From assembly GCA_000993275.1 (NCBI GenBank), contig LBVV01000002.1, positions 23,194 through 70,764 of the forward strand: a stretch of 47,571 nt of DNA, read 5' to 3'. The stretch is from a candidate division CPR2 bacterium GW2011_GWC2_39_10 (GTDB taxonomy: Bacteria; Patescibacteriota; CPR2). Shown here one piece after another: positions 5,690-46,750 of the stretch (the stretch's first letter is position 1; each line of letters opens with the position of its first letter). Below the pieces are notes generated by a model. It saw only the letters and a program-made list of their open reading frames with translations. It had not been told where the DNA came from and did not search any database. The position numbers were made by a program, and so were the translations under genes.

Positions 5690-6961
5690 CTATCTTTTTA
5701 TAATTTTATCAAAACCCAAATACTTTACCAATGCTTCCGGCATATTAATGCTGCCGTCTTTTTGCTGATAATTTTCAAAGATTGCAATTAAAATTCTGGG
5801 TGAAGCGATCATGGTGTTGTTTAGAGCATATGGGTGAACCAGTTTTCCCTCCCTTGTTTTATATCTAATGTTTAGCCTTCTTGTCTGCCAGTCGGTAAAA
5901 TTTGAATCGGAATGGGTTTCCCCGTAAGCATTTCTTGCGGGCATCCACGTTTCTAAGTCATACATGGCATATTTACCGGCTCCCATGTCGCCGGTTGCAA
6001 TGGATAATACTCTATGCGTCAACTGAAGCTCCGTAAGCATTTCTTCGGCTGTTTCCCTAAGTTGTTCCAGCCATTTCATAGACTCGCCCAAATCAGCCGT
6101 GCAAAGAATGACTTGCTCTACTTTCATAAATTCATGAAGCCGATAAGCGCCTCTCGTATCTTTTCCATAACTACCCACTTCCGATCTGTAACATTGCGAG
6201 AAACCGCATAACTTAATTGGTAACTCTGCCTCATCCAAAATTTTGTTGGCATTGTATGCAAGTAAAGACGGCTCAGCCGTACCTACAAGGTACAGAGGGT
6301 CTTTTAAACACTCATCTTTATCCGTTCCCGCATTTGCCACCTGGTATGTTTCCGTTTTGGCAAAAGGAAACTGACCACTTCCGGTTAAGGCAAATTCTCT
6401 AACTAAGGTTGGCGGTATCATTAACGTAAAACCTTTTCGTTTTAGTTTGTCCAAGGCCATCCACATAAGAGCCATTTGCAGAAGAACAGCTTCATTTTTT
6501 AAATAATATCCCCTAAAGCCGGAAACATTTGTTCCCTCAAGAAAATCGATTAGATCCAAGTTTTTAGCAAGTTCAATATGATCTAAAATGGGAAAGTCAA
6601 ATTTAGGAAGTTCTCCCCATTTCGATACTTCTTTGTTGGCAGATTCGTCACCAACGGGACTGTCAGGCGAAGGGATATTGGGGACTCTAAGCATTAAATC
6701 CTCAAACTGATCCTGAATTTTTCTTAGTTCGCCCTCTTTCTTGGTTAATTCCTCTTTTATTTTCTTTATCTTTTCAATTTCTTCTTTAGACGGTCTTTTA
6801 TCGGATTTTTTTTCGGACCTTAAATTATCTACTTCTTTTATTAGCTCAACTCTTTTCATATCGAGTTCAAGAAGTGCATCAATATCTACGTCCATCTCTT
6901 TAAGGTTGACGGCCTTTTTAACCAAATCCCTATTTTCACGAATAAATTTAATGTCTAGCAT
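5690..6961 (-). CDS. serS: seryl-tRNA synthetase
   Basis: A 423-residue class II synthetase that charges tRNA-Ser. The N-terminal coiled-coil tRNA-binding arm (about residues 30-105, Lys/Glu-rich) is followed by the catalytic core. Motif 2 appears as CYRSEVGSYGKDTRGAYRLHEFMKVEQV and motif 3 as ALNNTMIASPRILIAIFENYQ. The start MLDIKFIRENRDLVKKAV is typical, and AAGGG lies 7-8 bases upstream. It is the first gene of the run serS-hpf-small ORF-secA. The 78-base gap upstream has an AT-rich TATTAT element but no clear -35, so no promoter is called. Confidence 0.97.
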   Translation of the reverse strand: MLDIKFIRENRDLVKKAVNLKEMDVDIDALLELDMKRVELIKEVDNLRSEKKSDKRPSKEEIEKIKKIKEELTKKEGELRKIQDQFEDLMLRVPNIPSPDSPVGDESANKEVSKWGELPKFDFPILDHIELAKNLDLIDFLEGTNVSGFRGYYLKNEAVLLQMALMWMALDKLKRKGFTLMIPPTLVREFALTGSGQFPFAKTETYQVANAGTDKDECLKDPLYLVGTAEPSLLAYNANKILDEAELPIKLCGFSQCYRSEVGSYGKDTRGAYRLHEFMKVEQVILCTADLGESMKWLEQLRETAEEMLTELQLTHRVLSIATGDMGAGKYAMYDLETWMPARNAYGETHSDSNFTDWQTRRLNIRYKTREGKLVHPYALNNTMIASPRILIAIFENYQQKDGSINMPEALVKYLGFDKIIKR

Positions 6962-7039
6962 AAAAATTTCCCTTTCATAAACATAATATCAAAAAATAGG
7001 TTTAATATAAAGGTTAATTGAGAGATTTTGAGATAATTA

Positions 7040-8584
7040 CTATTTTATGGCTTCAAATATTCTATATAAGACAAATTCTTTTTCTAGTGAACCTAAAAAC
7101 CAACCAGCTTTGGGACCAAAATTTTTTCCCAAAAATATGACGTATATAGCACTAAAGGCTTCTTTCGGATCAATATTTGTAACTTTTTTCGTGTCGTGTA
7201 TAATTTCATGAATTTCATGGCCATTCCATTCGCCTTTGTTCAATTTTTGAGCCAAACTACTAAGAAAATTTTTCTGTTCAGATGATAGTGATATGTCTTG
7301 AGGCATACTTTTACTTACTTCAAATTTAAACTGTTCCGGAGCAAAATTTGTCAGCCATTTTTCGGCATAGGCTATCCTTCTCTTTATTTCATTTTTTTCA
7401 TTGGTATCAAGAGGAGTGCCTTTTTCAGCTTCCGCTTCTTTGTAGACATCAACTCTTGGTAATTGGATTGAATATGCCAATTTGGCAAATCTTGGTCTAT
7501 AGCCGGTGAAAGGTTTCCCTTCTGTCTGGGAATATTCAGCCACTTTTGCAAGGTCCGGATGTGTTTGTGGATCTTTATAAGCCAAGATTGCCTTGTCATA
7601 CTCATCAAAAAGATTAGGAATTGTTACTCCGGAAGGATTAAACTCTATCGTTCTTTTGGGGTTTCTAATCATCATAAAGCGGGTAATTTCGGGAGGAAGA
7701 AGCTCCGCAATATCTTTAGCATTTGCACCAAGACCTTTTGATCCACTCATTTTCTTGCCATCAAGCAAAAAGAATTCATATGGGATATCGTATGGTGGTT
7801 GATAATTAAAAATTTCTCTAGCAATATGATTGCCTACGTCTCTTGTTCCCGTTGCCGCTGAATGGTCTTTACCTGCACCCTCAATTGTAATGCCAATCGT
7901 CATCCATTTAGCCGGCCATTCAACTTTATAGGGCATCTTGCCTGTTCCGCCAAAAGGAGAAATTTTCCCTTTGTAAGAACATCCCGTCGCCCAATCAACC
8001 ATTTCTGGCTCACAAACAAAGGTAACTTCTTCTCCGTCCCATTCAATAGTTTTTGTGGTACCGATTTTCCCACATTTAGGACAGACAGGATGAAACGGAT
8101 ACCAATCATGGCCCTTATCTGACCTTCCAATTTTTTTATAGATATCTCTAATTTTTTCTACATTATCGAGAGCCAACTTAATTGCTTTATCCATCTTGCC
8201 AGACACATAAAGTTCATAGGCTGAAATCATTTTCGGCTTTGCGCCCACAATCTGCATTGTTTTCATAAAATCCTGGGCGAAAAAATCTGCCAGACTTTTT
8301 CCTTTTATTTCTGATGGTATCGAGCGCATGGGCATGCCCATGTAGGGAAGATATTTTTCAGCATCTAAATAAATCGGCAGCCCATCCATTGGATCAAAAT
8401 CATCGATAATAAAAGTGAAATTGGACTTGATTTTATGCGCATCAAGTGCTTTTTTCACGGCATCGTGAATAATTAATCCTCTTAGAGAGCCAATATGAGC
8501 ATAGCCGGATGCGGTCCACCCATCATCAATCCATTGGAACCCCTTATTCTTTACATCTTCAGCTATTTGATCTGCCCAAAACAT
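7040..8584 (-). CDS. lysS: lysyl-tRNA synthetase, class I (archaeal type)
   Basis: A 514-residue class I LysRS that charges tRNA-Lys. It is unrelated in fold to the class II LysRS of most bacteria. The HIGH-type motif is HIGSLRG (about residues 30-36) and the KMSKS-type motif is KMSGSKG (about 277-283). A zinc-finger insertion has CPKCG and a later C..C (CEP...GCSYKG). The C-terminal helical anticodon-binding part is present. No class II lysS is in the window. AGAGGA lies 6 bases before the ATG. The gene sits 18 bases after the greA terminator-like hairpin and has no obvious promoter of its own, so it may depend on read-through. Confidence 0.95.
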   Translation of the reverse strand: MFWADQIAEDVKNKGFQWIDDGWTASGYAHIGSLRGLIIHDAVKKALDAHKIKSNFTFIIDDFDPMDGLPIYLDAEKYLPYMGMPMRSIPSEIKGKSLADFFAQDFMKTMQIVGAKPKMISAYELYVSGKMDKAIKLALDNVEKIRDIYKKIGRSDKGHDWYPFHPVCPKCGKIGTTKTIEWDGEEVTFVCEPEMVDWATGCSYKGKISPFGGTGKMPYKVEWPAKWMTIGITIEGAGKDHSAATGTRDVGNHIAREIFNYQPPYDIPYEFFLLDGKKMSGSKGLGANAKDIAELLPPEITRFMMIRNPKRTIEFNPSGVTIPNLFDEYDKAILAYKDPQTHPDLAKVAEYSQTEGKPFTGYRPRFAKLAYSIQLPRVDVYKEAEAEKGTPLDTNEKNEIKRRIAYAEKWLTNFAPEQFKFEVSKSMPQDISLSSEQKNFLSSLAQKLNKGEWNGHEIHEIIHDTKKVTNIDPKEAFSAIYVIFLGKNFGPKAGWFLGSLEKEFVLYRIFEAIK

Positions 8585-41046: not shown

Positions 41047-41304
41047 TTAGGTGCCAATCAAAACTGACAAAATCTCATGCAACACCTTTATTAAGAAGAA
41101 AAACACTAGAGGTGCAAAATCGACCCCACCGGTTACGGGTACAAATTTTCTTATTGGATTAAGCATGGGATCTGTTATCTGGACTACGAAATCACTTATT
41201 TTGCCTCTGGCATTTGGCAGCCATGACAAAATTGCCCTTATAAACATGATAACAATTAAGGTCGATACCAATACGTCTAAAAAATTGTGTAAAAATGGTT
41301 TCAT
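41047..41304 (-). CDS. YggT family membrane protein
   Basis: An 85-residue protein with two hydrophobic helices and the YggT pattern 'LVSTLIVIMFIRAILSWLPNARG...VVQITDPMLNPIRKFVPVTGGVDFAPLVFFFLI'. YggT proteins are integral membrane proteins of poorly known function, linked to cell division or osmotic homeostasis in several bacteria. Its ATG overlaps the preceding stop by 4 bases (ATGA). Confidence 0.88.
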   Translation of the reverse strand: MKPFLHNFLDVLVSTLIVIMFIRAILSWLPNARGKISDFVVQITDPMLNPIRKFVPVTGGVDFAPLVFFFLIKVLHEILSVLIGT

Positions 41305-41567
41305 ATAGTAAACAAGTAATACTTAACTTCTGACAATGGAGGAATCTCGCCCTTCCAGCCCTGAATAAAAAGACCTTCATTTGTTGTGACAACCACAGAG
41401 GGCGTAGAGTAAATATCGTATATTTCAGCCTTGGCAATGCCATCAACTTCTTCGGTATCAATGGATACAACATCGTAATTATCTCTTTGAAGGGTATTAT
41501 AAAAATCCTTCAAATAATTTTCCTCAATTACCGATATATCTTTTTTTGAAAATACAAGAACCTTCAT
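41301..41567 (-). CDS. thioredoxin-fold protein lacking the CxxC pair
   Basis: An 88-residue protein with a thioredoxin/glutaredoxin-like pattern: MKVLVFSK start, two early helices, 'YDVVSIDTEE', then 'YDIYSTPSVVVTTNEGLFIQGWKG' with the cis-Pro motif (TPSVVV). No Cys is present, so it cannot be a conventional thiol redox protein. It precedes yggT (ATGA overlap). Its own promoter has a perfect TATAAT placed so that transcription starts at the ATG. Function unknown. Confidence 0.75.
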   Translation of the reverse strand: MKVLVFSKKDISVIEENYLKDFYNTLQRDNYDVVSIDTEEVDGIAKAEIYDIYSTPSVVVTTNEGLFIQGWKGEIPPLSEVKYYLFTI

Positions 41568-41610: not shown

Positions 41611-42303
41611 CTAATAATGTCTTATTTCAGAGCTAGCGACATTCGTTAATATTATCGCTTTTAGCTTTTCCATTTCCTCCCCAGTAAAGCTTCTCTTTGA
41701 CATATATTTTTTATCCAAAGTAATGGTCTGCCTAAAGCTTTGCAAAAACATTTTTTTGGCTCCTTTTATCATTGCTCCAATTTCCTCAATATCTTTTTTA
41801 TTATGCAATTCCGGCAAGATCGTAGATCTGAACTCATAATCAACGCGTGAGTTCATAATTAAATCGATACTATCAATAATATTTTTGCTACTCCCTTTAA
41901 TATTTGTTGTTAAATCATACTTCGTTAAGCTATTTTTTATATCCATGGCCACATAATCCACCAGTTTCCGGCCTAATAATTGTTTTAGCTTTTGCGGATT
42001 AGAGCCGTTAGTGTCTAATTTCACCAAAAACCCCAGATTTTTTATTTGCATTATAAAATCTTGCAAGTCTTTTTGCAAAAGGGGTTCTCCTCCCGAGATG
42101 ACAACCCCCTCTAGAATATGTTTCCTTTTTTCGAGATATTTTAAAACATTCGCCCCGTCCTCTAAAATTATATTTCTAGAATCAATTAGATCCGGATTAT
42201 GGCAATAGCCACAACGAAAATTACAGCCCACAGTAAATATTGAGGCCGCAATTTTGCCCGGATAATCGATAAGCGTAGTCTTTTGAAATCCCCCTATTTT
42301 CAT
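41611..42303 (-). CDS. nrdG: anaerobic ribonucleotide reductase-activating radical SAM enzyme
   Basis: A 230-residue radical SAM protein. The CxxxCxxC cluster motif is 'CNFRCGYC' near residue 30, within 'TVGCNFRCGYCHNPDLID', and 'VVISGGEPLLQKDL' follows. By homology and by its place directly after nrdD and the glycyl-radical ORF it is the activase that makes the glycyl radical. ATG 42303 lies 2 bases after the small ORF stop; a TTG at 42312 is an alternative start with GAGG just upstream. Confidence 0.93.
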   Translation of the reverse strand: MKIGGFQKTTLIDYPGKIAASIFTVGCNFRCGYCHNPDLIDSRNIILEDGANVLKYLEKRKHILEGVVISGGEPLLQKDLQDFIMQIKNLGFLVKLDTNGSNPQKLKQLLGRKLVDYVAMDIKNSLTKYDLTTNIKGSSKNIIDSIDLIMNSRVDYEFRSTILPELHNKKDIEEIGAMIKGAKKMFLQSFRQTITLDKKYMSKRSFTGEEMEKLKAIILTNVASSEIRHY

Positions 42304-42305
42304 TT

Positions 42306-42473
42306 TTAACAAACTTCCTCATTCTTGAGGCTAAAGGTAAGCATCTTTCGATCGCCATATTCGGATTGTTTGCCCTTGTTCCATTGATGAACCGGCCTTA
42401 TGTAACCGACAACTCTGGAGAAAACCTCACATGGCTGCCTTAGCGCTTCGATTTTGTTAATTTCCTCTAACAT
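42306..42473 (-). CDS. separate glycyl-radical domain of class III ribonucleotide reductase
   Basis: A 55-codon ORF with AGGAGG and a 6-base spacer before the ATG, 11 bases after the nrdD stop. The protein contains EVFSRVVGYIRPVHQWNKGK (residues 16-35) followed by QSEYGDRK, which matches the C-terminal glycyl-radical loop of NrdD proteins; Gly23 in VVGY would carry the radical. The large NrdD upstream ends right after its zinc ribbon and lacks this segment. So the radical-bearing end appears to be a separate polypeptide, like a built-in version of the PFL rescue protein YfiD/GrcA. The next gene is the activase nrdG. Confidence 0.85.
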   Translation of the reverse strand: MLEEINKIEALRQPCEVFSRVVGYIRPVHQWNKGKQSEYGDRKMLTFSLKNEEVC

Positions 42474-42484
42474 AATACCCTCCT

Positions 42485-44599
42485 TTATACTTTTACTTCA
42501 CTTTTTGTATTTAGATTTAAATTTAATTGTTCCCTGTAGCCAATTTCTTCATCACACTTTGGACAAAATTTGTGTTCACCGGCCAAATAACCGTGTTTAG
42601 GACAAATGCTGAAGGTTGGAGTAAGAGTAAAATAAGGAAGTTTATAACTTTCAGCAATTTTTTTAACAAGCTTTTTATAAGACCCAAGATCATGAATTCT
42701 TTCGCCAAGATAATTGTGAAGAACCGTTCCTCCCGTATATCGTATCTGAAATTCGTCCTGCGCATCCAATAGATCAAATATATCACTGGTATATCCAACC
42801 GGATGCCATGAGGAGTTTGTGTAATATGGCTCGGCGCCGCTTCTGAAAGCCTCTTCATTGGCAACCCTAATTTCGGGATATTTTTTCTTATCGGCCCTGG
42901 CAAATCTGTATGTGGTTCCTTCGGCCGGGGTTGCCTCCAAATTATACAAATTCCCCGTTTCATGCTGAAAATCTAATATTCTTTTATTCATGTAGTCCAT
43001 GATTTCTATAGCGAATTTCCGCGCCTCCTTGTCTCCCAGGTCTTTATCCATGAAATTAAGCATGGCTTCGTTCATGCCGTGGATACCGATTGTGGAGAAA
43101 TGATTCTGCCAGTATTTGCCAAACCTTTTAGAGACGTTGTCTAAATAAACGCGGGCATAAGGATACAGTCCCTCGATAGTAAACTTTTCCACAGTTTTTC
43201 TTTTTAAAACCAAGCTCTCATGGGAAATGGTCATCAAATATTCGAGTCTACTGAAGAATTCTTTTTTTGTTTTAGACAAAAATCCGATTCGAGCTAAATT
43301 AATTGTAACAACGCCGATACTTCCGGTAAGTGGGTTGGCGCCGAATAGTCCACCGCCTCTTTTTCGAAGCTCTTTATTATCAATTCTAAGACGACAACAC
43401 ATGCTTCTGGCATCATCGGGACTCATATCGGAATTAACAAAGTTAGAGAAATAAGGGATACCATATTTAGCCGACATCTCCCAAACCGGATCTAAAACAG
43501 GATTATCCCAATTAAAATTCTTCGTTATATTGTAAGTTGGGATCGGAAAAGTGAAAACTCTCCCCTTAGAGTCACCAGCCATCATTACTTCGGCAAATGC
43601 TCGATTCAACAAGTCCATTTCTTCTTGGTAATCCTTGTATTTTTCTTTTTGCAGCTTGCCGCCAATTATTACATTTTCTTCACCCACCAGTTTTGTGGGG
43701 GCTAGATCCATTGTTATATTAGTAAACGGCGTCTGAAACCCAACCCTGGTTGGAACATTCATGTTAAATACGAATTCCTGGAGACATTGTTTAACTTCAT
43801 TGTAAGATAGCTTGTCATATCTGATAAAAGGAGCAAGATAAGTATCAAAATTAGAAAAAGCCACAGCGCCGGCGACCTCACCTTGTAAAGTATAGAAGAA
43901 ATTAACTATTTGGCCCAAAACAACACGAAAATGCTTTGCCGGACCACTCTCAATCTTTCCCCTGACACCCCCAAAACCTCTAAGTAAAAGGTCCTTTAGG
44001 TCCCATCCGGAGCAATAGGCAGCCAATATATATAAATCATGTATATGAATATCGCCCTCGATATGAGACTTCTTGATGTTGTTGGGATACATTTTTTCGA
44101 GCCAGTATTTGGCTGTTACCGAAGAACTAATGTAGTTATTAAGTCCCTGTAGAGAATAACTCATATTACTGTTTTCTTTAACTCTCCAGTCTGTTTCGTT
44201 TAAATAATCCTCCATTAATTCTCCAACGTCGAGCATTTTTCTGATTTCTCTTGCTTCTTCTCTTTTTCTGCGATAAATAATATAGGCCTTGGCAGTTTCT
44301 TCGAATACAGAGTCAATTAAAACATGTTCAACAATGTCTTGAATTTGCTCCACATTCGGAGAAATATTTTCAAATTTTCTATTAAGAATGGAGACAACTT
44401 TTAGGGAAAGTTTATGAGCTAACTTTTCGTTTAACTCACCCGTTGCGTTTCCGGCTTTTAATATGGCTTTGTCTATCTTTGAAATATTAAATTTTTCCAA
44501 ATCGCCATTTCTCTTTACAATGTGGGTGAATGTCTTTTTCTGTAAGCTCTTCTTATCCAGATGCAAAGGCTCCTGCAGCATTTTAGAACGGTCGCTCAA
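42485..44599 (-). CDS. nrdD: anaerobic (class III) ribonucleoside-triphosphate reductase, large part
   Basis: A 704-residue protein that reduces ribonucleoside triphosphates. An N-terminal ATP-cone (about residues 24-112, 'FTHIVKRNGDLEKFNISKIDKAI') gives allosteric control. The ten-stranded barrel shows 'GDIHIHDLYILAAYCSGWDL', the 'MCCRL' Cys pair (about 400-403) and 'RGGGLFGANPLTGSIGVVTIN'. The C-terminal zinc site CPKH...CPKC is present, but the protein ends about 25 residues later without a glycyl-radical loop; that is encoded by the next ORF. I chose the TTG at 44599 because AAGGAGG lies 5 bases upstream; an ATG at 44647 would overlap the previous gene by 32 bases. Confidence 0.94.
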   Translation of the reverse strand: MSDRSKMLQEPLHLDKKSLQKKTFTHIVKRNGDLEKFNISKIDKAILKAGNATGELNEKLAHKLSLKVVSILNRKFENISPNVEQIQDIVEHVLIDSVFEETAKAYIIYRRKREEAREIRKMLDVGELMEDYLNETDWRVKENSNMSYSLQGLNNYISSSVTAKYWLEKMYPNNIKKSHIEGDIHIHDLYILAAYCSGWDLKDLLLRGFGGVRGKIESGPAKHFRVVLGQIVNFFYTLQGEVAGAVAFSNFDTYLAPFIRYDKLSYNEVKQCLQEFVFNMNVPTRVGFQTPFTNITMDLAPTKLVGEENVIIGGKLQKEKYKDYQEEMDLLNRAFAEVMMAGDSKGRVFTFPIPTYNITKNFNWDNPVLDPVWEMSAKYGIPYFSNFVNSDMSPDDARSMCCRLRIDNKELRKRGGGLFGANPLTGSIGVVTINLARIGFLSKTKKEFFSRLEYLMTISHESLVLKRKTVEKFTIEGLYPYARVYLDNVSKRFGKYWQNHFSTIGIHGMNEAMLNFMDKDLGDKEARKFAIEIMDYMNKRILDFQHETGNLYNLEATPAEGTTYRFARADKKKYPEIRVANEEAFRSGAEPYYTNSSWHPVGYTSDIFDLLDAQDEFQIRYTGGTVLHNYLGERIHDLGSYKKLVKKIAESYKLPYFTLTPTFSICPKHGYLAGEHKFCPKCDEEIGYREQLNLNLNTKSEVKV

Positions 44600-44615
44600 T
44601 TTTTCCTCCTTTTTT

Positions 44616-46220
44616 TTATCCAAGTTGTATTTTCTTTTCTTTTTCATCTAAACTTTCTTTTTTTACTATTTCATACGCTTCCACAATCTTCAAAATGTTC
44701 CCGCTGCCGCACACACAGTCGCTACTAACAACATTTTGTCCCAGTATTTCTATTATTTCTTCCAGTAAGATGCCTCTCCGCAACATAATATTAATTAAAT
44801 TTATGATGATTGTTTCGCTCGAGGAAACTTTAGCTTTACTCAGCAACACCTCCATCGGCTGCAAATCGTTAGAATAATTTATAGTTATAAAAATATCATC
44901 GTCGCTTGACTTAAGTCGAACAGTTTTGCCGTTTAAAATTAACGGCCTTTCTTTTGACTTTAATACTTCGTCGGTTTCGTTCCTCTCGCCCCCATTGGTT
45001 CTAATGGAAACAGCAGTTGTCAACTCAAACTTTAGGATTTTAATTCCCAGCCCGGATGCGAGCCTAAAAATATTCAGCATTTCATCGTGGTTTGTTTCCG
45101 GAGATATTAAAATAGCTTTCGTACTAACGAGATCTGTATATTTTTGCGACTCTCCTTGCATCCTAACCTGCCATTCCGGAGAAGCTTCGTTTCCCGTTTC
45201 CTTAATACCGGTAGAAACATTAAAATATTTAGCAATCTCAAAATTCTCACTTAAACAGGTAAGACTTGCATTCCTTAAAGGCTTTGCATTGTCGAAAATG
45301 CCTTCATTAAATAGTGGAAAAACACCCCTTTCCTTGGCAAGCTCAGAACTGGCATTTTTAGCTTCTGTATCTACAAATTTAGAAACTTCCCCAAGCAATT
45401 TAATAGCTTCTTTAGACTCATAACTAATGCCCATTTTACCTATAGCATCGCTAAACCCGCAAATGCTAAGACCAATTTTCCTAGCTTTTTTGGTTTGTCC
45501 TTCAATTTCTAAAGTTGGGTACTCGTAAATATCAATTATGTTGTCTAAGAAACGCACGGCTATGTATATAGTATGTTTTAATTCGTCAAAGTTAATAACG
45601 CCTTCGTTTATAAAATTTGACAAGTTAATAAAGCCTTCGGCAACCTCTTCCCTTTCGGTAACCAATTGATTAGATGGCAAAATTTCAGAAAGCCTAAACT
45701 TTTTTCCCAAAGGATTAAATCTTTCAACCTCGTCTTTAAACACAAAACCTTTTATTTTATTTTCCTTAGCCTTGGTGAGTAGCTCCTTTGCTAAGTCTCC
45801 TGATTTCTTTTTTTGTTCCGTACCGTCGCCATTTTTCATCAAAATAGCGTCCTTCGATCCAAGCTTCTGAAGATATTCGTCACTGATTGATAAGTAGGAA
45901 TTCGGTAAAGTATTTACATGGATGTCCTCATTCATTAATTCCACTAACTGCATATTATCATCCTCGGCATCAATTCCAAGCTCCCGATCTAAAAACTTTT
46001 TTGAGGGAAGAAAATTTAACCTGTTTATGATATTTGCGAACTCTCGTTTTATATTATCCAAATTTAGCGTGGTATTATAAAACTTTTCTTGCTTTATGGC
46101 TTTTTCAATTAAAAAATTGATGGCGTTATCAATTGCAACCGCTTCTATTTCGCTATTATACAAACAATTAAGTTTAGAATTTGAAGTATCGCTTTCTACC
46201 TTTGCATCCTCATTATTCAT
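44616..46220 (-). CDS. degenerate class II ribonucleotide reductase (NrdJ)-like protein, probably inactive
   Basis: A 534-residue intact ORF. Residues about 150-300 align by eye with the NrdJ barrel: 'EVAEGFINLSNFI', 'AVRFLDNIIDIYEYP', 'KIGLSICGFSDAIGKMGISYES', 'SELAKERGVFPLF', 'RNASLTC'. Residues about 425-500 align with the C-terminal TSCPD-type domain: 'RPLILNGKTVRL', 'IFITIN', 'INIMLRRGILLEEIIEIL'. The catalytic NPCGE motif is replaced by LPSNQ, the loop APTGTIS is replaced by LSENFEIA, and several hundred barrel residues including the first redox Cys region are missing. The C-terminal CVCGSG remains. It lies between nrdR and nrdD, 13 bases after nrdR, with GGGGAG before ATG 46220. A regulatory or structural role is inferred. 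Confidence 0.75.
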   Translation of the reverse strand: MNNEDAKVESDTSNSKLNCLYNSEIEAVAIDNAINFLIEKAIKQEKFYNTTLNLDNIKREFANIINRLNFLPSKKFLDRELGIDAEDDNMQLVELMNEDIHVNTLPNSYLSISDEYLQKLGSKDAILMKNGDGTEQKKKSGDLAKELLTKAKENKIKGFVFKDEVERFNPLGKKFRLSEILPSNQLVTEREEVAEGFINLSNFINEGVINFDELKHTIYIAVRFLDNIIDIYEYPTLEIEGQTKKARKIGLSICGFSDAIGKMGISYESKEAIKLLGEVSKFVDTEAKNASSELAKERGVFPLFNEGIFDNAKPLRNASLTCLSENFEIAKYFNVSTGIKETGNEASPEWQVRMQGESQKYTDLVSTKAILISPETNHDEMLNIFRLASGLGIKILKFELTTAVSIRTNGGERNETDEVLKSKERPLILNGKTVRLKSSDDDIFITINYSNDLQPMEVLLSKAKVSSSETIIINLINIMLRRGILLEEIIEILGQNVVSSDCVCGSGNILKIVEAYEIVKKESLDEKEKKIQLG

Positions 46221-46233
46221 TTTCACTCCCCTC

Positions 46234-46689
46234 TTATCTTTCTTTTTTCATTTTTTTGATAATCTCATGAAAGCTATTTATATCGGTAAAAGATTGGTAA
46301 ACAGACGCAAAACGGATATAACTAACATCATCCAAGCTTGACAATTCCTTAAGAACTTGCTCCCCAATCTCCATCGATAAAATTTCATTTTCTCCTCTTG
46401 CTCGTATTTTTTTCTCAATCGAACCTACCACTTCCTCAATTTCCAATTCCGGAATCTCTCGTTTTTCGCATGCCCTGTATACTCCGTTAGCGATTTTGCT
46501 TCTGGAAAATTGCTCTCTTTTGCCATCTCTTTTTATAACCATAATCACCGGCTGCTCAATTCTCTCGTATGTAGTAAACCGTGTTTGACATTTAAGACAT
46601 TCTCTTCTTCGTCTAATTAATTCCCCATCATAAAGTTCCCTCGATTCCATTACTTTTGATTCAGATTTCTTGCACTCGGGGCACTTCAT
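46234..46689 (-). CDS. nrdR: transcriptional repressor NrdR
   Basis: A 151-residue regulator that senses ATP/dATP and represses ribonucleotide reductase genes. The N-terminal zinc ribbon MKCPECKKSESKV...CLKCQTRF and an ATP-cone (about 47-137) are intact. It is the first gene of the nrd operon, and two tandem NrdR boxes lie directly upstream, so it should autoregulate the locus. AGGAGC lies 6 bases before the ATG. Confidence 0.97.
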   Translation of the reverse strand: MKCPECKKSESKVMESRELYDGELIRRRRECLKCQTRFTTYERIEQPVIMVIKRDGKREQFSRSKIANGVYRACEKREIPELEIEEVVGSIEKKIRARGENEILSMEIGEQVLKELSSLDDVSYIRFASVYQSFTDINSFHEIIKKMKKER

Positions 46690-46701: not shown

Positions 46702-46750
46702 AAACTATATGTAGCGGTATATACTAGATTAAACACTATATGTAGCGTGT
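46702..46750. promoter_or_regulatory. tandem NrdR boxes upstream of nrdR
   Basis: Two copies of ACTATATGTAGCG (46704-46716 and 46735-46747) are exactly 31 bases apart, three helical turns, as in known NrdR operators. The right copy is flanked by ACAC/GTGT as in the palindromic consensus. The right box sits between the -35 and -10 of the predicted promoter, the left one just after the start. Confidence 0.85.

Follow-up and report, generated by a model that had tools for sequence, protein, structure and literature searches.

Identity and genomic context of the NrdJ-like gene

In a 47,571-nucleotide stretch of DNA from the candidate division CPR2 bacterium GW2011_GWC2_39_10 (the window, meaning this stretch at its full length), an open reading frame (ORF) resembling the class II ribonucleotide reductase (RNR) NrdJ lies between the repressor gene nrdR and the class III reductase gene nrdD. 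A first-pass annotation, made from the sequence alone, had described it as an intact but catalytically dead reductase paralogue and had taken this to suggest a new role, such as allosteric partner, scaffold or dNTP sensor. This raises the question of whether the ORF encodes a genuine NrdJ homologue devoid of catalysis, whether such a protein is maintained, and what it could do beside a class III enzyme. The features of the locus are collected in Table 1. The window genome (G000) was compared with a genome of the same genus (G001) and with one of another genus of the same family, f1 (G002).

Table 1. Features of the nrd operon, numbered from the first position of the window
Feature	Position	Strand	Remarks
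NrdG-type radical SAM activase	41611..42312	-	TIGR02495, E = 4e-61
Putative detached glycyl-radical subunit of NrdD	42306..42473	-	55 aa (CEVFSRVVGYIRPVHQWNKGKQSEYGDR); own Shine-Dalgarno sequence AAAGGAGGG
NrdD large chain	42485..44599	-	ATP-cone, MCCR finger loop, Zn ribbon; no glycyl-radical loop
NrdJ-derived pseudoenzyme	44616..46220	-	534 aa; ATG 46220, GTG 46226 possible alternative start
Degenerate TSCPD-like domain	44739..44903	-	Residues 440-494, below curated cut-off
Retained barrel-domain homology	45303..45983	-	Residues 80-306; PF02867, E = 3e-28
Site of lost NPCGE/ESCNLG motifs	45642..45680	-	Residues 181-193: LPSNQLVTEREEV
NrdR repressor	46234..46689	-	TIGR00244, E = 1e-53
NrdR-box-like site	46702..46716	.	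AAACTATATGTAGCG on +
NrdR-box-like site	46733..46747	.	ACACTATATGTAGCG on +; overlaps a TTGACA

As the annotation had stated, the frame is open through all 534 codons and has a good Shine-Dalgarno sequence (GAGGGGAG); it begins just past nrdR. The long similarity to NrdJ was likewise recovered. Besides the barrel-domain match, the model of B12-dependent RNR (NF006417) matched the ORF with E = 3e-57, and a phmmer search of PDB sequences returned T. maritima NrdJ with E = 1e-23. These matches, far beyond chance, make the ORF a clear homologue of class II RNR. The nearest named relative is 'bacterium CG2_30_37_16' (unclassified at NCBI). A second NrdJ homologue was not found in the genome (1.1 Mb, 97% complete). 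Since the ORF is the only NrdJ homologue there and occupies the place where sister families keep an active nrdJ, the word paralogue is not supported in its strict sense; the description of the ORF as intact and catalytically dead stands, and it is also under selection (see below).

The gene order ftsZ-nrdR-NrdJ-like-nrdD-gly-nrdG is identical in all three family genomes, in agreement with the placement reported for the window. The nrdD Shine-Dalgarno sequence comes directly after the stop codon of the NrdJ-like ORF. An overlap of the two genes, suggested by the longest nrdD frame (start at 44647), is only apparent: the likely start is a TTG at 44599 with AGGAGG at 44605-44610, which fits G001 better, and hence the genes do not overlap. 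Upstream of nrdR lie two NrdR-box-like sites 31 bp apart, and G001 and G002 have such sites there as well; judging by sequence and spacing, we infer that they are NrdR boxes. Pairs of such sites, approximately 31-33 bp apart and overlapping a TTGACA, were seen upstream of nrdR in the window and at loci L032, L033, L037 and L086, and L040 has one NrdR-like box. Downstream of nrdG, at 41301-41567, the window contains a small ORF of 88 aa with a weak thioredoxin-like match, kept near the same place in several relatives; its product might serve to reduce the class III enzyme.

Loss of the active site and predicted retention of the fold

In the phmmer alignment, N320, C322 and E324 of T. maritima NrdJ fall on L181, S183 and Q185 of the window protein, and C333 falls on V193; these residues and C133 follow the catalytic-site numbering of the T. 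maritima enzyme. The thiyl-radical cysteine with its asparagine and glutamate (N-x-C-G-E) is missing from the window protein, which has L181-P-S183-N-Q185, and from the G001 and G002 proteins too. The redox cysteine pair is also missing, the C133 region being deleted and C333 replaced by V193. The deletion removes approximately 70-80 residues, among them the C133 region (ACFVLP) at one end, GGGTG, and at the other end GGTRRGAN, which is specificity-site loop 2 of NrdJ; this loop (GG[TK]RRGAN) is deleted in all three genomes. APTGTIS has become LSENFEI in the window protein and LPSKEIA in that of G002. The C-terminal CxxC/zinc tail, which the enzymes of sister families have, is absent, and a profile search found no ATP-cone in the protein. 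The reported loss of NPCGE, APTGTIS and much of the barrel was thus borne out, and the same active-site elements are lost in each of the three family genomes. By its alignments, 44616-46220(-) is confirmed as a class II RNR homologue lacking an active site.

The annotation had also seen a TSCPD-type C-terminal domain. A match does exist (19.6 bits, E = 0.0011), but it scores below the curated cut-off of 22.8 bits and the domain was not detected in the G001 homologue; we therefore call it degenerate. In the predicted structure this region comprises strands (430-461) and helices.

What remains is mostly structural. We took as canonical every position conserved in 90% or more of the active homologues compared, 103 in total. 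The window protein retains 33 of these and its G002 homologue 40, with 19 common to both, and the residues kept by the window protein are for the most part not those of the active site. Only 13 pseudoenzyme-specific residues are common to G000, G001 and G002, which leaves little for a tight conserved interface. The AlphaFold model of the window protein (single chain) reaches a mean pLDDT of 73.6, and some segments of its core exceed 90. Its top Foldseek match is T. maritima NrdJ (TM 0.50-0.59 by query length, E~1e-20), which is also the best match of the G002 model (TM~0.62, E~1e-26). The pseudoenzyme is therefore predicted to retain the NrdJ fold. Profile search and structure prediction, two of the checks proposed at the outset, bear out the homology and point to the NrdJ fold.

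Purifying selection on the NrdJ-like protein

Between the window and G001, whose NrdJ-like proteins are 78% identical, dN/dS of the gene is 0.096 at a dS of 1.26, where synonymous change is near saturation. The neighbouring genes gave 0.127 (NrdG), 0.043 (NrdR), 0.037 (NrdD) and 0.025 (FtsZ). The ORF contains no stop or frameshift in three independent genomes, as against a neutral expectation for its length and composition of approximately 27 stops per lineage (minimum 14 in 300 simulations). Thus, the protein is maintained and under purifying selection. Neither a lack of NrdJ homology nor random frameshifts or absence, the outcomes named beforehand as contrary, was seen in the three family genomes.

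Between genera the protein has changed fast. G000 and G002 share 26% identity in the NrdJ-like protein and 79% in NrdD, and the pseudoenzyme stem branch is very long, constraint following within the genus; a protein released from the demands of catalysis would be expected to change fast and to have a long stem. The three family copies form a single clade (support 86/96, a result affected by long branches), which favours, in weakened form, a single origin of the gene in the family. A contig scan for the pseudoenzyme found only the same-genus genome and none outside family f1. Within the class, to which the inspection of low-scoring NrdJ matches was confined, no other genome has one.

A putative two-gene class III reductase in the same operon

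The class III enzyme next door had been noted as working-looking. NrdD is indeed encoded there, but its ORF is incomplete alone: it stops after the zinc ribbon, at model position ~529 of 562, and the missing glycyl end (SRVVGYIRPVHQWN) is encoded on a separate 55-aa ORF. Of the 562 positions of the NRDD model (PF13597), the large chain covers 1-529 and the small ORF 531-561. The same arrangement is present in G001 and G002. As read from these frames, the large chain without a glycyl loop and the 55-aa ORF supplying that loop would together be a two-gene class III enzyme.

Separate glycyl ORFs were found across many families of the phylum (for example L032 13206-13373 and L033 12013-12183, with further cases in L082-L099). 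They encode approximately 40-76 aa, mostly with RxxCEVYSRVVGYIRPVxQWN. Of 380 sampled phylum genomes, 77 have a glycyl stretch, and in approximately 40 it is carried on a short ORF, defined as an open frame below 120 aa. At all 20 loci of this kind that were fully read, the small ORF immediately follows the NrdD chain and precedes nrdG; in 19 of them the chain ends without a glycyl loop or has a masked end (G009). The remaining locus (G281, L101) has a fused, complete NrdD (5789-8029) and an extra 93-aa glycyl ORF (8135-8416) with CxxC pairs in front, which looks like an NrdD spare part or a stage on the way to the split. Its sister G331 (L100) has a separate glycyl ORF only, with the same kind of start. 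Because of this pair, we suggest that the glycyl end was duplicated and the fused one then lost. In the tree most split NrdDs group together (SH-aLRT 98 for a clade of 19 rows), and the split in G331 has an origin of its own; on this topology the split is ancestral to a large NrdD clade of the phylum. At L090 (2322-6338) the split large chain, 1338 aa, is interrupted by an intein with LAGLIDADG domains.

No NCBIfam family for split NrdD or a two-gene class III RNR was found, and phage records gave no split glycyl ORF recognisable as a source (three weak matches). Splitting of phage nrdD by introns or inteins has been described (PMC3653736); a search of open-licence papers returned no split NrdD of the separate-glycyl-ORF type.

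Sister families and the rest of the class

At the same place after nrdR, sister families have either a full nrdJ with intact NPCGE or nrdD-gly-nrdG without nrdJ. The same split NrdD without an adjoining NrdJ homologue was found in f2, f3 (genus g7), f4 (g9) and f6, and the NrdJ-like protein is therefore not needed for class III catalysis generally. The idea that a pseudoenzyme stands beside every split NrdD was rejected, with none present in these families or in f24. Full NrdJ and NrdD are mutually exclusive in the class, with a single exception (G015, a 64%-complete genome, on separate contigs). A class I small subunit was not found in any of the 16 genomes of the class. No genome of the class, with or without NrdJ, has the cobalamin adenosyltransferase PF01923, and its loss is hence uninformative on the loss of NrdJ. 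At L034 5374-13442, L035 132-8341 and L036 7415-13881, three or four diverged NrdJ genes (566-962 aa) that retain NxCGE stand in tandem; most copies are without the CxxC tail, and a TAA interrupts one L034 copy.

Possible function of the NrdJ-like protein

We tentatively favour a role as a non-catalytic partner in dNTP synthesis, working as an accessory subunit or in assembly; the prime candidates for what it binds are the NrdD large chain and the glycyl subunit. The predicted retention of the fold, the loss of all catalytic elements, the maintenance by selection and the co-regulation speak for a protein role that does not involve catalysis. The ORF would then be the former class II reductase of the lineage. 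The class III cassette (nrdD, the separate glycyl-radical gene and nrdG) would have been present first in the same NrdR-regulated operon; nrdJ would then have lost the catalytic cysteine, the redox pair, the specificity-site loop, the phosphate-binding loop and the reducing tail, and its product would have been retained despite these losses. At present it would be co-expressed and act, without catalysis, by binding another component of dNTP synthesis. Action by contact, like the identity of the partner, is what we infer; given the shared operon, the most straightforward guess is that the protein binds the class III enzyme. As sister families need no such protein, it would be at most accessory, and the fast divergence beyond the genus speaks against a tight class III partner. 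We regard as rather unlikely the specific version in which the inactive NrdJ belongs, as an accessory subunit, to a class III RNR of several parts, for instance docking or protecting the 55-aa glycyl subunit.

A job unrelated to the class III enzyme, in which the old NrdJ scaffold serves another ligand or protein or acts on NrdR, is a serious possibility. It would agree with the mostly structural nature of the 33 retained canonical positions, with the occurrence of the same NrdD elsewhere without the NrdJ-like protein, and with a long stem followed by constraint within the genus; the strict nrdR/nrdD context and the NrdR-box-like sites in all three genomes speak against it. The dNTP sensor or allosteric regulator proposed earlier, acting through the ancestral nucleotide sites, does not hold up well. 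Descent from an allosterically regulated family and a place in a dNTP operon are in its favour, but the first half-barrel part with loop 2 is deleted in all three genomes and there is no ATP-cone, so that sensing at canonical sites is disfavoured; sister families, moreover, use split NrdD alone. We consider this reading improbable. A functionless ORF, decaying or an assembly artefact, could account for the very long branches, the loss of most catalytic positions and the low identity to the G002 copy, but we rejected decay as very improbable in view of the dN/dS, the conservation and the frames intact in three independent genomes, to which the confident predicted core adds. That the protein is a still-active divergent RNR, or makes up a split class II enzyme together with the product of another gene, is hardly credible: split class II enzymes do exist (Pseudomonas NrdJa/NrdJb, PMC4520616), but here there is no cysteine at the thiyl position, no redox pair and no class I small subunit, and a missing half on another NrdJ fragment was rejected, none having been found in the genome.

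Comparison with known systems

The pseudoenzyme resembles NrdJ of the T. maritima type (PDB 1xje/3o0n) in the homology of residues 80-306, the predicted fold, the degenerate TSCPD-like region and the place after nrdR. Unlike that enzyme, it has none of the catalytic or redox cysteines and has lost NPCGE, APTGT, the specificity-site loop and the CxxC tail at the C-terminus. A parallel in fate is offered by the herpesvirus RNR large-subunit homologues HCMV UL45 and MCMV M45, which are inactive and kept for another role (PMC5469499). They too are large-subunit relatives that lost catalysis and were retained otherwise, but they are viral, class I derived and act in host signalling, whereas the NrdJ-like protein is bacterial, class II derived and encoded in an nrd operon. 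In the literature searched, herpesviruses were the only source of RNR large subunits that had lost activity and been kept for another role; a selected bacterial class II pseudoenzyme in an nrd operon would be new. On the specific version regarded above as rather unlikely, a class III enzyme would have taken over a class II enzyme as a subunit without catalytic function.

The split class III enzyme has wider importance than the pseudoenzyme. Between them, the large chain and the 55-aa ORF span the full NRDD model, as in class III NrdD (NF006126/TIGR02487), from which the window's enzyme differs in carrying the glycyl-radical loop on a separate gene. This gene arrangement points to an NrdD whose oxygen-sensitive glycyl radical can ride on a small, possibly exchangeable subunit. 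A stand-alone glycyl-radical domain is known from GrcA/YfiD, a spare part for damaged pyruvate formate-lyase, and work on YfiD has raised an exchangeable glycyl part for other glycyl radical enzymes, with experimental support only for pyruvate formate-lyase (PMC8683613). The likeness lies in the glycyl-radical domain being a protein of its own. Unlike that spare part, the window's 55-aa protein would serve a main enzyme without a glycyl loop, and is therefore presumably an obligatory NrdD subunit.
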